Positions 42,462-50,432 of a stretch of DNA of 64,000 nucleotides are shown here, piece after piece; the first letter of the stretch is position 1, and the number at the start of each line of letters is the position of its first letter. A program made the position numbers and the translations under genes. The notes under the pieces are model-generated. The model saw only the letters and a program-made list of their open reading frames with translations. It was not told the DNA's origin and made no database searches. The stretch is from Omphalotus guepiniiformis (lineage: Eukaryota; Basidiomycota; Agaricomycetes; Agaricales; Omphalotaceae): NCBI GenBank assembly GCA_028554645.1, contig JAQOOI010000019.1, forward strand, positions 1,364,001 through 1,428,000. The letters are read 5' to 3'.

Positions 42462-42470
42462 ATGCAGACA
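42462..42470. repeat. 9-bp target-site duplication, left copy
   Basis: ATGCAGACA immediately outside the left inverted end; the identical 9-mer lies at 49534-49542. Confidence 0.85.
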
Positions 42471-42512
42471 GGGGTCCATACTCGATTACTCTTATTCGAT
42501 TAGCTCGGGGAA
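42471..42512 (+). repeat. Left terminal inverted repeat
   Basis: Starts GGGGTCCATACTCGATTACT. Matches the inverted right end apart from a few bases after GGGGTC and near the inner edge. Confidence 0.85.
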
Positions 42513-42720
42513 GACTGATGCGCCGCTGAACAGACAGGTTGAGGGACCGAGTGGAGATCAACGTGCAATACCGGCTACGTGGCCGATGCTTCCGTACTGT
42601 TTGTACTATTTGGCAAAGTGCTGAAAGTAATACAAGAAAAAATAGCTGGAAAGTACTGGCTTTTTCGTCAGGGCTTCGTCACACTGTCTATGCCTCGTGT
42701 TGCGATGACCACGGCAATAA

Positions 42721-45158
42721 TCGGGCAATAATACTCTGTACGATTTTCTTCGTCCATTCTTTCGGCAATGTTGTTTCAAGTCAATCTCAATTAAAAAAAA
42801 GTTCGGCAGTGAATCGAGGGACTCCATTGAAGGCCAATCAAAGCTTTTCAAACACAAAGACCTTCCAATCTTCAATAGCGGCGAATTGAGAGACGGCGAG
42901 GTCATCCAAGTCACTCAAGTCTTTCAAACAGTGTACAATCATGAGCCGAGATTCCAACTTTGTCCTAACTGGGAGCGGCGATCCAAGGTGCTTTGCCTGG
43001 AGAAAGATGGAGATTTAAATATGTGGTATTTCGTAGGCAACTTTACCTCCCCAGTCCCATATTCTGAATCTGCTGAGTCTATGCCGAAGTCGTACTCTTC
43101 TGTTCTCCACCATCCACAGCATGGATTGCTGCAACAGCCGCAAAGAGCCTCGACTATTCCCAATCCTAAAGACGACCATGAGGCTATCCACGACCCAAGT
43201 GTAGCAGACTTAGAAGAATACAGGCGCCGGTTTGATGCACTTGTTGAAATGGGGGCAACACCCACTTTTGACAGAGAGACACGACAGTATGTTGTATGGT
43301 CAAGGTATCTTTATATTCATTCTCGGCAGTGAACCAGTCGCTGACTACATCGCAATCTGTTTCAGACCAACATATGATGGGAATGCGAACAGCCGTCGTG
43401 TTATTGGAGTGGATCGGCTTAAGGCCCTCCTTGCCAAGTCATCGTCCATCTCTCACATCCAACCCCCACACTGTGTCCATGCTGCGAATGAGTTTCGGGA
43501 CAACTCTTTCACGTCCCTAAAGCTGGTTGACAAACTGAAGAATGATGTGAACCTTGGAGCTGCTGCATACTTTGTAGCAGGTCATAAGTGTGATTTCACG
43601 CCTGGTCTGTATCATGCTGCTTCTCAAATCCTAGGTTGACTGATTGTATTGTGACAGTGCCACTCTTCAAGAGAAACATTGTTGGTGAATCAAGGGGAAC
43701 TTCAGTAACGTCCACTGAGAGTGAGTCATAACAGCTAAAGTGTATTGAAATTTCTAACGGAGGTTATGATTAGTTGATAAGGTGGAGGAGACTGATGTGG
43801 CACTCAATCTGCTTCAGTTTTCGTCAGCACCTAGTTCTCCAGTGAAGTCCGAGTCAGGTTAGTGTTTGATTTTGGCAATAATTCTTTGCTAATAAGTCAA
43901 ATGTGATATAGCATCCAATGCAAACACTGAGGAGGAGGAGTTAGACATTTCCCATGCAGTTGAGATGTCCTTGCTCGACTCGTGTACATTTGAAGGTGCG
44001 CATGCTATTCTAACTATTCCCTGAAGTGCTGTACCTGATATTTGACTGTTAAGGTGGCTCCGTTGCGACATCATCTGAATCTTTTTACAATAATTACGAT
44101 GACTCTAAGTTCGGCTGGAGTTTACGCCCCAAACCGTCGCCCTCGAAAAAAACTGGACCTAAATCTTTCTTTAATCAAGAAGAAGCTGAACGTCGGAAGG
44201 CACCAGGTAAGCTGGAGTTATTGCTGTCCAAATATCTGTTTGATCTCTTGTATCAGATGCTCAGTTGATTGGGCTAGTTCGTGAAGAGTATCAGCGCATG
44301 ACCTACCATCGTCAGTTGCCTTTTGATCTGCTTCTGACCCGAATATTGTACTAATTCTATGTTTAGAATTTCCGGAACGACATCCAGCATTTGATACGTC
44401 AACACTTCAAAAAACACCAGCTCCTCTTCGTCCTTACCACCCAGATGTGTCGCCGGGAATTGGAACTCGTAGCGAACTATATCATCGGTTCCGGGGCACT
44501 GCAACTGGGTCTGCTATAGATCATCTGAATGCGACACCGGGTCTGCCCAATAATACCTTTGCTCTGCTTATGCTTCAATCAATTCGTTGTTTGTCTTGTG
44601 ATGCTAGTTTTAGCCTCCGTGGATACGAAGCTCATCGTGCTAACGAGTATTGTTCCAACACACCGGATCTACTTTACGGTATGTTTTTGAGTCAATTGTG
44701 CTTACTTGTACTCATATGTTCCTATTATCCTTTACGTACCTCCTATCGAAGCTGACGGTATTGATGAATGGCATCTTGAGATGCCACTCCGAACCTACTG
44801 TGCTGGTGTCACACTGAACCATCGTTATCTCCTTAATACTGCCATGGGCCGTGCATGGCTTGAGTGGAATAGCCGTATTGGCGTACCACATGATGTTTGG
44901 GTTCTGATCTCAACTGCTCATATCCGCTGCTTTGAGTGTGGTCTTGTGCGTACTTTTGTTGCGCACCAAGCACACCTGACAACAGATGGCATCTGTAATG
45001 ATGATGGAGAAGGAAGGAAAAGTCTCATAGTAGGACATCGCAATGCTAATTTTTTGGGCCGCAAATATCTCTACTTGGTTGACGGTCTTTTCGCAGATGA
45101 TGAAGAGCTCGAGAACACCAGTGTGTGCAAAGCGCTGGTGAAATATGTACCGAAGTAA
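42721..45158 (+). CDS. Transposon-borne accessory protein, uncharacterised, 5' end unresolved
   Basis: An open frame runs from after the TAA at 42718-42720, without an in-frame ATG before about 43020, so a first exon is missing from my model. Later junctions are clear: 43304/43366, 43604/43658, 43720/about 43773, then about 43859/43913, 43994/44054 and more, to the TAA at 45156-45158. The middle has a UIM-like stretch, EEEELDISHAVEMSLLDS (about 43930-43983). The C-terminal part has two similar Cys/His pockets: RCLSCDASFSLRGYEAHR with a later C (about 44585-44660), and RCFECGLVRTFVAHQAH with a later C (about 44928-44997). No nuclease or helicase motif is seen. It is convergent with the transposase, with 321 bp between the stops. 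Function unknown; a DNA-binding or ubiquitin-linked helper is a guess. Confidence 0.65.
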
Positions 45159-45479
45159 GGGTCTGGAGGATCACCTTGCTCCTTTTCTTGCCATAATCAT
45201 AATTCTTGTCCGAAATTAAAAAGTACTTATGTGCATTACTATAACTCTTAATCTTACTGAAAATGTACATATACAAGTATGTTTTGCACATGCAATATAC
45301 CTCTACAAATTTGCGAAGCTATGTGAACTTGAATTTCCTCTTCGTGCACCCTGGCATATTACACTGTGACACACTACAACATAGTCAACGACACTTCTAG
45401 CACAGTTCTATACGGCTACTTATTGATGGCAGATTCACACAATAGTACAAGAAAGATGCAAGAAACATATGATGTATTA
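45159..45479. other. Convergent spacer inside the transposon
   Basis: 321 bp between the two stop codons; AT-rich, no exon. Confidence 0.7.
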
Positions 45480-48400
45480 TTATTGGTCGCATGACATAAC
45501 AGATTCTGGTGACAATAAGACTATTACCTTGCCACTACCTGGAGTGAGCTTGCGTCCGACTTCAATCTGTTTCTCGTAAGTGCGAAACGCCTTCGACTCC
45601 TGCTCTAATGCTTTACGATACTCCTCTAACGAAGTCTCGTTGGTCAGCTGGCACCTGTCAATCTTTGCTCTGGCACTGAGGAGTTTTTTGAGAGCATCGT
45701 GAAACCTTTTGTTATGTGTCTCGATTTTACTGTCTTCCGAGGCGAGCTTTGCATGCTGTGCTTGATCTGCAGAAGAAGGTAAGTTGAGGTATCACATTCT
45801 TAGAAATACATACACTTTCGCTTCAGTCCACGCTCGGCATTTTCAGATGAGTGACCAGATTGATACGAAGTTCTTATACCGGTATTTTCATATGTCTATG
45901 TGATGCGAAGCTGTCAACTCGTTTGTCGCACCAGAAGCCTTCCAATGTTAACTCACCTGCAGTGCATTCAAATTCAATCGATCTAGACGTTCTCCAGAAC
46001 GCAGCCCGCCAATCAAGGGAAGACATGTACCCTCACGGTTAGCATTGTGATGTACGCCCTCAACAATATTAGTCGATGCATCACCGGAAATCCAAACCTC
46101 TCTTGGAATACGACTTCTCTCCCAGCACATAGCCTGAAGCGCAAACTTGCTCCGTTCTTTATCATAAAGCCATGCTAAGATCTGATCAGGAGCACTCCGA
46201 TCTGACTAGTAGAAGAAACATACCATTCCCTGCTTCGCCCCCAAGATGCCGAATCAATGCCAATGTTTCATCCCAATTTGGATGCTCAATGCATACCAGG
46301 CTATACATCAGAGACCTCACACGTTCCTCTACAGCACAAGAGCGTATGTTCCGTTTAACATGAACTTGACAGAGGCGAAACAGACGGTGAAGATGTTCAT
46401 AAGGCGAAAGACTGGAGAGAAGTCGTTCCGGCTCATGTAGGTCATATTTATCTGGTAAGCGCATTGCGAGATGTTGAAGGTGAAGGCCAAGTCCTGTTGA
46501 ACTCGTCAGAAAGATCTATTGAGTGACTAATGTATCAGGTCATACCCAATGCTTGTCCACCGTGTTGATCACCAGCCCATTGCAGTATCACATTGTCATA
46601 TTCATCCAGGCCTTGCGAATGTAAGTGGCGCCACTTCAGATTTTCGCCAGTGTCTTCTTCGACAATCTTCTCAATTTCGCGGAATATGTATGCATGCACT
46701 AGTGCACACGCCCGAGTAAGAAATATCCTACAAAATACAATACCTGAATGGAGTGATGATAATTAGCTACATTCACGCGTGACATAAACATAGACGTACT
46801 CATGTTGGAATCTCTGTCCTGACATGCCAACTCAAACTCCTGGAAGCCTACCACCCGCTTGAAAGCAATATCACTTTGTAAATACTGCGCACGAATGAGA
46901 CGTCTGCTTCCTTCAGGAAGCATGCAGATGATTATTTTGACGAACGACCGTTGATCATCCAGCGTGGTTTGCTCACTCTCTGGCACCATATCCAAGTCGT
47001 CTAAAAGGAAGGTATCGATGGTCGAGCGTGACTCGTCACTAGACCCCAGCATGCAGGGAAGATCTTGAGCCTTAAATACAACCATTTTGCGGATGTATTG
47101 ATCAGTTGATTGGATGCTCTTCAGATGCAACGCGCCTGCAACATTGACAATAATTTAGTCCGATAATGATCAATGTAAACGTGTAAATGAATCTCACCTT
47201 CCCATCCTGTTCCGTGTGGAAAATGCTGTAGTCTTGCTTGTCGGATATATGCCCCGATATGTGACCGATTGCTTAGCGAGACATGGATATCACTAAGTAG
47301 GGCATTGTTCATAGCAGGAAACCGGCTACGCAAGTGTGCCTTCAAAGCCGGATGTCTTAGAAGTTGTCGAACCGTCAATCCGGGAAGGTCATCCACAATA
47401 GTATTGAATATGGAGAACAGCTCGTTTCTCGCAAAGGGTGGTGTTTTCGAAGGGATAGGTACAGGGTGATGATGCTCGCCTTTGACGGTCACTAGAATGT
47501 ATGGGTATCGAGAACGTTCCTCAAGCATGGGTTCAAATATGCGGAACTTGACGTTGCAAGGTAAGTGTTGCATTTCATGTTGATGAAGTCGACCAGATGA
47601 GTCACGATGATCAAAGGCTATATTCCTTGCTGTCAGTTAAAGTCAAGAGAAACACAACTGTGTCGTTCAACACATACCACAATAGACCCTCTGACTAGAC
47701 GTGTTACACACAGTTGTACATTCAACGAGTGGCCCATATCCTAAAGCATATGCTGCCTCTTCAATACGGTCAACCTCATCCGTATCTTTGTTGAAATGTG
47801 CCTCCAGATACTCTACATCATACGAGTTATTGACATAGTGGATCAAGTGATTACGGCCACTCTCTGAGTGATAATGCTCGCATCTACGGGGTTCATCAGT
47901 GAATTAGAACATTTGGAGCTTGAAATTCTACTCACGCGATGAATGGAATGTTACAGGAGTCATATGCAAACAGAATTCTCCCCTCGCAGCGATCAACCTT
48001 TGCTTTGTAGCCTCTTCGAAAATGTTCCAGCTCGGCTTCTATTTCTTGCTGTAGAACCTTTTCGGATGCTTGAAGGGGAGTGTCTTTGTCTCGCAAAGCT
48101 CTACAGCCAACGCGTCGAAGAGCAATGATAAGTGCTGATGTCTTCTTGAAAGTTTCGGCTGACGGTGAGGCATACAGTAAGCGACATTCCCGATCCTTCA
48201 ATAGGCGGTCAACGACATCTTCCCGGCTAGCTGAAGTATGCGGGCATGACATAGAATCGATGTCAGCACAAGGGCATATTTTGACTCCTTGACCTGATTA
48301 ACATTAGATACTACCTCGTCACCCACTAGATTGATTGACTTACATGTGAAGTGCTTTTCAGTACATAGGATGGTGCTGCCCACTGAATCCAGATTCACGA

Positions 48401-48881
48401 GCACAGGACATACAACTTCGTGTCCAACTCTAGTTTGACCTGCTGGTGCTCCAAGAGAGTACGCAAAATTGGCCGACGGAAGCTGCCATTGTTGTGGGTC
48501 GCACCGGAACAGGTAACCTATAGGTGCTGATATGTTGCTCTCCGGATATTCTATATATGTGCGTGGTTCATTGAAGATGTAGAGTGTTCCGAGTGTTGTC
48601 TTCCTATTGAGATAGACGTTATGTCGAATCTCAGAAGGAACTGGGCTTCCGTGAAAAGCTGTCCCTCCACCAGGAACATCGCAGCTCAGCGGTAATCGAG
48701 CTGGCCGCATTTGCTCGTGCATTGACTCCGAACCTGGGTCAACAGAACATAAGAGAAACGACAGCGACATTCGCTGTTCACCTGTGCCATTTCCGACAGT
48801 ACTCCCTGACAAACTCATCAGTGTTGGCTTCGAACAGCAAGGTTTGTGTCTATTCAAATATTTCATTGACGAATAGTACAT
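45480..48881 (-). CDS. MULE-type transposase, intact
   Basis: Ten exons: 48881-48344, 48293-47936, 47883-47678, 47617-47198, 47135-46800, 46743-46546, 46493-46224, 46174-45957, 45895-45814 and 45766-45480. They total 2913 nt (970 aa) with every junction in phase and no stop. The catalytic core appears as LQSDIAFKRVVGF (Asp about 596), WAGDQHGGQALGLGLHL (Asp about 678), RLCQVHVKRNI (Cys727, His730, the CxxH that follows the second Asp in MULEs) and ASTNIVEGVHHNANREG (Glu about 814). Cys-containing segments near residues 180-200 may bind zinc. The C-terminus is a coiled coil. Related proteins are multicopy in agaric genomes, from memory. It should excise and insert the surrounding element by cut and paste in the nucleus. 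Confidence 0.8.
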
Positions 48882-48926
48882 GCGGCGACGTCTGCTACTG
48901 GTGACCCTCTAAGCGTTTGAGAAGCA

Positions 48927-49203
48927 AGACAGCGGGGAACTTCACGCTGGTGGTGAGATCATGTCAAGCAAATAATCACCGAGGGAATACCTGAAAACGG
49001 GGGACATATCCCTCGGCCATCCCTAACCTACAACCGAGACCTCCAAGCATTTTGAGACTGAAGTGACACGGAATTTGAAGCGAAAGTTCAGGTGTATTGA
49101 AGGCTAGATAGACAATAGACACGGGGAACTTGAAATGTTGGTTAGGATATGTTAAGCATGCATCACCGAGGAAATACCTAAGAAATATCCCTTGGCTGTC
49201 CAT
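48927..49203. repeat. Subterminal direct repeat pair with hairpins
   Basis: Two related units of about 94 bp, near 48927-49020 and 49109-49202. They share GACACGGGGAACTT-like, TGTTAAGCA-like and TCACCGAGGGAATACCT-like words. Each unit can fold: CCGAGGGAATA pairs with TATCCCTCGG in the first, with some decay in the second. They lie between the transposase start and the right end, a usual place for transposase-binding or promoter elements. Confidence 0.65.
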
Positions 49204-49489
49204 TTACATGCGTGAAAATCGCTATCTGGATGCGAATAGAGGTAGGCCGTTTCGCGATGCTGAGCCTTACCGATTGTCGAAGACGCCGCGCTCGTCGTGA
49301 AGGTACGCGTTGACCTAGTGGCGGTCACACTACAAGCGTTACGAAGCAGAATTTGTCGCGTATATGCACTTGTTTACCAGAGGCATGTTTCCTCCTGTTT
49401 CTCCTCTCGCCGGACAGGGTCCGAGCAACGCCAGCAGTGACATCATTTTCTGGCTCCGGGTGCGCGGAAAGTATCTTTGAGTGTTCCTG

Positions 49490-49533
49490 TACTTCTCTGA
49501 GCTAATCGAATAAGAGTAATCGACTCTGACCCC
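49490..49533 (-). repeat. Right terminal inverted repeat
   Basis: Ends GACTCTGACCCC on the plus strand; its reverse complement starts GGGGTCAGAGTCGATTACTC. Confidence 0.85.
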
Positions 49534-49542
49534 ATGCAGACA
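49534..49542. repeat. 9-bp target-site duplication, right copy
   Basis: ATGCAGACA directly after the element end, identical to 42462-42470. Confidence 0.85.
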
Positions 49543-50432
49543 GTTCATTTAGAAGATACTGATTGATTGATTAGCGCTGGGATGCAATTGTTCGACAATA
49601 CAATCCAATACATTTCGTGCTTACACCGGCTTACACCGCGTGCAGTTGAACTTTGTGGGTCCCGATCTTATACAATTTGGTTCGATGAAGATTGCTCCAG
49701 GCTCCCTGTGCTATTGTCTTGTCTACCAATCGCTTCATCGTCGCTATGTATTCCTGCATCGTGTTGTACTCGGTGTATAGCATTTGCTAGTTCGCAGAAG
49801 TTCTGTTCCGGTGGAAGTTCTGAACGGAGTGGATGTATCCCCTCAGTGATCGATTCTGGGTACTATGACAGCTGCGATAAGGACAATGGAACAGGATAGT
49901 CAAAAGGCGTTCCTTCTACTTACTTATCACAGTGCTGAATCAAAAACGCTCGAGCGCAACGATCATTGCGTGCATGCTTCAGAGACCCATACTCAGACAG
50001 AAAGCCTGACGGTCGGCTGGATCTGCGAGGGCCGCGGCAAATCGTCTGCACATCGATTCATATTATTTGGCGCATATCGTTTCTGGAAGGCATCAGTCGT
50101 AGCAAAATCTTGATGAAAGACGCATAGTAGCACCAGTTTAACAAGGAGCGACCGTCAAAAGATGAACTTGAAAGAGAATTTGCAGGCGCCGGTTTAATGT
50201 GCAGTTTTCATTCATGAGCTTGGCCAAAATTGCAGCCCAGTGAGTTCAGGATTAGAGCAATAAATATCTTAAAGACAAGGTTGGTGAAAATGAAGGGAGT
50301 TATATGCGCTGAGTAGGAAAGGTCGATGGCCAAGTTCACTCTATATGTTACGTAAGCAAGGCCTTCCTCTTGAGGCCATTGCCAACCCTCACTTCGACGC
50401 TGAGGCTGTCGAGGCTGTCGAGCAGGAGCGAA
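49543..50432. other. Intergenic region
   Basis: About 890 bp between the transposon and the F-box gene. Only short frames; no supported exon. Confidence 0.6.

Follow-up and report, generated by a model that had tools for sequence, protein, structure and literature searches.

The locus studied here raises the question of what kind of transposon can combine the anatomy of a Mutator element with a transposase that is not recognised by the Mutator profile. It lies in a stretch of 64,000 nucleotides of the Omphalotus guepiniiformis genome (hereafter the window; C19:1364001-1428000, in an assembly of 42.5 Mb and 80 contigs), where a prediction made from the letters alone had placed a complete, Mutator-like DNA transposon with two genes, a transposase gene and a second one, named here gene 2. 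A complete two-gene DNA transposon was indeed found, with both frames open and both the inverted ends and the target-site duplication present. It is very probably an autonomous cut-and-paste element working like Mutator, i.e. of the Mutator-like element (MULE)/IS256 type, and its membership is one of anatomy and modelled fold, not of sequence.

The limits of the element are the following.
42462..42471, no strand: left copy of the target-site duplication, ATGCAGACAG, 10 bp (9 bp with the boundary first proposed), read in the flanks.
49534..49543, no strand: right copy of the target-site duplication, ATGCAGACAG, read in the flanks.
42472..42506, plus strand: terminal inverted repeat on the gene-2 side, GGGTCCATAC and then the 25-bp core TCGATTACTCTTATTCGATTAGCTC; the same end is found in six other copies.
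49499..49533, minus strand: terminal inverted repeat on the transposase side, from the outer end GGGGTCAGAG and then the identical 25-bp core, read in the sequence.

Each terminal repeat is made of 10 diverged and 25 identical bases, and the perfect 25-bp core of the original prediction was recovered as TCGATTACTCTTATTCGATTAGCTC. The predicted 9-bp flanking repeat is also real, as ATGCAGACA flanks both sides of 42471-49533, but the left boundary had to be shifted by one base, which gives an element of 7,062 bp (42472-49533) and a duplication of 10 bp. The boundaries first proposed require a one-base gap within the inverted repeat. Ends were sought by a gapped scan for a flanking direct repeat plus inverted ends, since an ungapped scan misses the known element owing to this one-base shift. 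The element's pair of ends was found with a score of 29, and nothing matched when the region was shuffled (3 times).

Other copies with these ends, on whose existence the prediction had staked itself, are present in the genome. In the genome, 9 matches are found for the element's first 300 bases and 13 for its last 300, and the following complete copies (named by contig) were delimited.
C78 (1,737 bp), C22 (1,737 bp), C63 (1,840 bp), C65 (1,912 bp) and C34 (1,894 bp): complete short copies with shared ends.
C56, 8,110 bp (region C56:290829-299938): interrupted complete copy with shared ends.
C74:413338-420329, 6,992 bp: diverged sister element of a second subfamily, with two convergent genes and a 10-bp duplication.

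Short copies of the second subfamily, of 1,732 and 1,840 bp, are found on C20, and the tblastn stretches of the C74 transposase contain stops, which may lie in introns. C63, C65, C78 and C22 carry gene 2 remnants, and C78 and C22 also remnants of the transposase N-terminus; they are therefore deletion derivatives. The ∼6.3 kb that interrupt the C56 copy resemble a young long terminal repeat retrotransposon, with identical terminal direct repeats of 467 bp and a short target duplication.

The boundary was placed by comparing the seven copies of the window subfamily, window copy included. In C63, C65 and C34 the gene-2-side end is GGGTCC, starting GGGTCCATAC, with a base other than G before it; a further G precedes GGGTCC in the window copy, C78, C22 and C56. 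Because C63, C65 and C34 do not have this fourth G, the G at 42471 is most probably part of the duplication and not of the element. With GGGTCC as the end, TCGATT begins 10 bases inside both ends in every copy, C74 included. The duplications then measure 10 bp for the window, C22, C63 and C74, and 9 bp for C78, C65, C34, C56 and each of the two short C20 copies, i.e. 9-10 bp in 10 of the 11 two-ended copies (the uncorrected boundary would give 8-10 bp). The eleventh, a decayed copy at C20:2373123-2377879, has no duplication in the flanks read, against the 10 others that have one. Outside this count stand two single ends (C60:123740, C74:524216) and the partial copies on C57, on C69 and at C60:659k.

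The two ends are unequal, and the difference between them is kept in all 7 first-subfamily copies and in C74. In the window subfamily the core is preceded by CAGAG on the transposase side and by CATAC on the gene-2 side; on C74 the corresponding bases are TAGAG and CATAG. Within the terminal repeat stands a doublet, TCGATT-N8-TCGATT, with its two TCGAT words 14 bases apart in both ends; it is a putative binding site for the transposase. The pattern GTCGATT-N5-TATTCGAT (at most 1 mismatch) occurs 25 times genome-wide, compared to once for the pattern read backwards.

The transposase gene was modelled as follows.
45480..48881, minus strand: transposase gene, 970 codons in ten exons, spliced model guided by relatives.
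48881-48344, 48293-47936, 47883-47678, 47617-47198 and 47135-46800, minus strand: exons 1-5, 5′ to 3′.
46743-46546, 46493-46224, 46174-45957, 45895-45814 and 45766-45480, minus strand: exons 6-10.

The predicted frame of ten exons and 970 codons without internal stop held once a splice acceptor was chosen to fit the relatives (47617, not 47629), which yields exactly 970 codons with one stop, at the frame end; the nine introns are GT-AG and 47-62 nucleotides long. An unguided splice model of 974 codons was dropped, the relatives having fixed one acceptor. Judged from the same relatives, a start at Met38 (48770) is as plausible as 48881. With residues 280-880 as query, 148 relatives were found at E≤0.001. 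The best 120 of these 148 share 38-51% identity and have no Pfam domain in any of them; 119 are annotated as hypothetical protein and one is unnamed, in agreement with the prediction that this type is usually left hypothetical. The organisms named among the relatives listed are presumably all Agaricomycetes. In NCBIfam, one chance match came up for 3 relatives and nothing else, and no naming of this agaric family surfaced in the excerpts returned by a literature search.

Four positions define the candidate catalytic centre.
46870..46872, minus strand: codon of the first catalytic Asp (D596), from the alignment of relatives and the model.
46568..46570, minus strand: codon of the second catalytic Asp (D678), from the alignment of relatives and the model.
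46360..46371, minus strand: CxxH motif (C727, H730), from the alignment of relatives.
46059..46061, minus strand: codon of the catalytic Glu (E814), from the alignment of relatives and the model.

The second Asp, the Cys and His of CxxH and the Glu are invariant in 23 aligned sequences, and the first Asp nearly so. In the window transposase, the spacing is 82 residues from first to second Asp, 52 from second Asp to His and 136 from second Asp to Glu, with two candidates for the conserved Trp, 11 and 21 residues before the Glu. An AlphaFold2 model was obtained for the relative P0007, with 65 sequences, in place of the window's own protein. Its mean predicted local distance difference test (pLDDT) is 88.7, its strands and helices follow one another as in RNase H and the catalytic residues are in place, so that the RNase-H-like core on which the prediction depended is present in the model. 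In the modelled relative, the positions of Asp, Asp, CxxH and Glu on this core correspond to those in Mutator enzymes. With VIA-align, the first three rows for the P0007 model were ISCth4, followed by Hermes, the P element, RAG1 and integrases. Foldseek against viral models gave one strong match, O92526 (an uncharacterised protein of Chelonus bracovirus), with E 6.1e-13 over 527 columns and 14% identity. A SWIM-finger reading of CPCADIDSMSCPH was dropped because the relatives keep only C-x-G-x-K-x-C and His.

Whether the element should be called a MULE depends on what is compared. In the available passages of PMC6446971, MULE target-site duplications measure 8-11 bp and terminal inverted repeats 14-500 bp, the latter being absent from some groups. 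The element has a duplication of this length, terminal inverted repeats, a DDE triad on the modelled RNase H fold and CxxH between second Asp and Glu. The predicted Mutator likeness therefore stands for the anatomy (9-10-bp duplications, D/D/CxxH/E order) and the modelled core, but it fails at the sequence level, where no relation was found to known MULE transposases, PF10551 being a diagnostic of these and not a strict definition. Several results weigh against the Mutator assignment. The PF10551 profile test proposed with the prediction was negative for the window protein (no match listed with E up to 1, 848 residues) and for relatives (none in 5), and for the 23 alignment members no MULE profile stood among the 25 of 37 families shown, the rest of which would be single weak matches. 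Profile comparison by hhalign with one of the genome's own canonical MULEs gave no signal (probability 0.3%), one side being a single sequence. The CxxH lies 52 residues after the second Asp compared to 24 in Muta1 (H307-D283), and the Trp candidates 11 or 21 residues before the Glu compared to 18. Foldseek against the PDB gave nothing at E≤0.001, the best match being the P element at 0.022. Finally, the transposase relatives on C42 and C76 have no such ends by scan. The transposase profile matched only coiled coils in the PDB, through its C-terminal helix, with E of at least 0.26. As the profile test failed, we describe the element as Mutator-like in mechanism and do not formally file it as a MULE.

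Alternatively, the transposase could belong to another CxxH superfamily (hAT, P or Kyakuja-Dileera-Zisupton, KDZ), or form a separate one, its Mutator look then being convergent. The insertion domain of hAT transposases (Hermes) between second Asp and Glu is large, and the 136 residues found here are too short for it. No KDZ or hAT Pfam family is among the matches listed, and the 9-10-bp duplications of 10 of the 11 copies contrast with the 8 bp usual for hAT and Zisupton in the part of PMC12730594 available. hAT and KDZ fit less well than Mutator, and we regard convergence as improbable; the element is treated below as Mutator-like. Two other observations concern transposase sequences in this genome. 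A PF10551 MULE at C60:317709-318029 has the usual D/D/CxxH/E motifs and, by eye, a SWIM-like C-terminus; its sequence is unrelated to the window element. At C76:∼801000-815000 lies a palindrome whose ∼7-kb arms, 99.99% identical over 7,026 bp, each carry a transposase relative; it arose either by inverted duplication, very recently, or as an artefact of assembly.

The N-terminal half of the transposase was compared separately.
47390..48629 (approximate), minus strand: N-terminal half, a possible GCM/WRKY-like zinc-binding DNA-binding domain split by an insert, from profile/structure comparison.

Aligned to GCM by hhalign, it gave P 0.00084 and a probability of only 24%, with 51 columns paired in the register expected and 31% identity; with 62 sequences, P was 0.0021, and the score of the real sequence was equalled or exceeded in 2 of 200 shuffles. 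GCM was not found for this half in a Pfam search or in a profile search against the PDB. This half is possibly a DNA-binding domain of the GCM kind. We put forward only tentatively, and with more doubt than belief, that the family is a deep unlabelled Mutator/IS256-fold lineage in many mushroom-forming fungi, with a GCM-type domain split by a helical insert as its N-terminal half. If true, this would tie transposases to the animal GCM transcription factors at the level of a whole domain, and the transposase with its C2HC helper gene would represent a distinct type of transposition system, with two proteins.

Gene 2 faces the transposase gene, in convergent orientation.
43021..45158, plus strand: gene 2, predicted with a putative start codon, 561 codons in nine exons, an open frame with relatives on C74, C57 and C69.
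43021-43304, 43366-43587, 43635-43720, 43774-43857 and 43912-43995, plus strand: exons 1-5.
44054-44206, 44257-44310, 44367-44678 and 44752-45158, plus strand: exons 6-9.
44588..44653, plus strand: first C2HC motif (residues 397-418), Cys/Cys/His/Cys invariant in the 3 relatives aligned.
44928..44996, plus strand: second C2HC motif (residues 486-508), Cys/Cys/His/Cys invariant in the 3 relatives aligned.

All eight introns are GT-AG, and the C-terminal part consists of two similar modules, each G-x-A/G-(x)n-N...G...W/F...C-x2-C...H...C. Relatives occur at two other genomic places (33% identical on C74, 39% on C57), the C57/C69 one being present twice in the assembly; the copy at C57:286857-287750 has both C2HC motifs. 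The same stretches, an end fragment and the gene-2 relative, lie in mirror order on C57 and C69, which may be one region assembled twice, or two haplotypes. Exon 9 alone, predicted without alignment, gave an uninformative structure (pLDDT 33.9). For the gene 2 product, a role as helper or regulator travelling with the element is the most likely one, by analogy with mudrB or MutB elsewhere. The other explanation, a captured host gene or cargo caught between the ends, would account for the gene-2 relative on C57 and C69, contigs where the transposase query matched nothing, and for 2 of the 4 transposase-bearing loci (C42, C76) having no convincing gene-2 match nearby. It would also agree with the database searches: no gene 2 relative was found at E≤1 among 5.8 billion proteins (7,998 candidates scored), compared to 148 for the transposase, nor, when the alignment of three sequences served as query, at E≤0.01 (7,370 candidates), in a search requiring shared 5-residue words and similar length, from which fast-evolving relatives may escape. 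Yet gene 2 has the same place and orientation in the diverged C74 element, its remnants are kept in four short copies, and its C2HC residues are invariant, which makes capture unlikely.

The element had also been predicted to be young and possibly still mobile. The intact frame and duplication agree with this, but there is a single full-length copy and no empty site: the assembly holds no second near-identical full-length copy, and no empty site or second allele, the 801-bp left flank occurring once. The evidence of recent movement is indirect: C78 and C22, two derivatives inserted at different sites, share 98.5% identity, and C34 matches C56 in four pieces at 92-99% identity (mostly 97.6-99.4%), meaning that something moved or copied them fairly recently. 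A silent fossil, kept intact by chance or by recent silencing and no longer moving, would be consistent with the single full-length copy of this subfamily and with the 13-29% difference between short copies and window element in matching stretches of their ends. Set against it are the 970 and 561 open codons, the perfect 10-bp duplication and the near-identical derivatives; we consider such a fossil quite possible, if on balance not the probable state of the element. Open frames, duplication and derivatives agree, as judged from sequence, with recent movement; none of them dates the window insertion.

A Mutator-like transposition cycle can be proposed. The two genes would be transcribed inward, one from each end. 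The transposase would bind the inverted ends, probably at the TCGATT-N8-TCGATT doublet via its N-terminal domain, and pair them. Cleavage would be carried out by the RNase H-fold DDE site (D596, D678, E814), with C727 and H730 of CxxH near the active site, and the element would be joined to staggered target DNA, whose repair would leave the 9-10-bp duplications. Internally deleted copies of 1.7-1.9 kb would be mobilised in trans.

Proteins of mushroom-forming fungi that are annotated as "hypothetical" can now be called transposases. A PF10551 profile search of the genome hit two other places, neither within the element, and a normal MULE search therefore passes this family by. In the available text of PMC8290104, which used a pfam10551 search, the Marasmius oreades genome has widespread non-autonomous MULE-type insertions, and their autonomous partners are reasoned to have escaped; two M. 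oreades proteins of the present family lack any Pfam match. With one complete element for reference, its ends placed to the base, a second gene and short copies predicted to depend on it in trans, a transposition assay becomes possible.

Among known systems, ISCth4 (IS256 family) is the best solved-structure match by VIA-align, at 10% identity; it is a 402-residue prokaryotic protein without the N-terminal half and without a second gene. Muta1/Phantom (Aedes, invertebrates) shares the CxxH and the 136 residues from second Asp to Glu, and differs in CxxH and Trp spacing, in terminal repeats and in length (504 residues compared to 970 here). Its duplications are 8-9 bp and its spacing, computed from residue numbers in the part of PMC5225508 available, is 69, 24 and 136 residues. 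MULEs are known in polydnaviruses, where one clusters with Phantom (passages of PMC6446971). Mutyl (Yarrowia, Hop group, Ascomycota) is also fungal, and in the same source has 9-10-bp duplications, as here, 22-bp ends and a second open reading frame with a zinc-finger/DNA-binding role (MutB, on whose orientation the passages disagree). Unlike Mutyl, the window transposase has an N-terminal domain of its own. With maize MuDR, whose genes mudrA and mudrB are convergent, the element has in common two genes, a DDE transposase, ∼9-bp duplications and non-autonomous derivatives. It differs in its ends of ∼35 bp, in having no Pfam MULE match, and in gene 2, for which the database search, made without direct comparison, detected no relation to mudrB. 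In MuDR each gene lies beside its own inverted end, mudrA at TIRA and mudrB at TIRB, according to the text available of PMC8224964.
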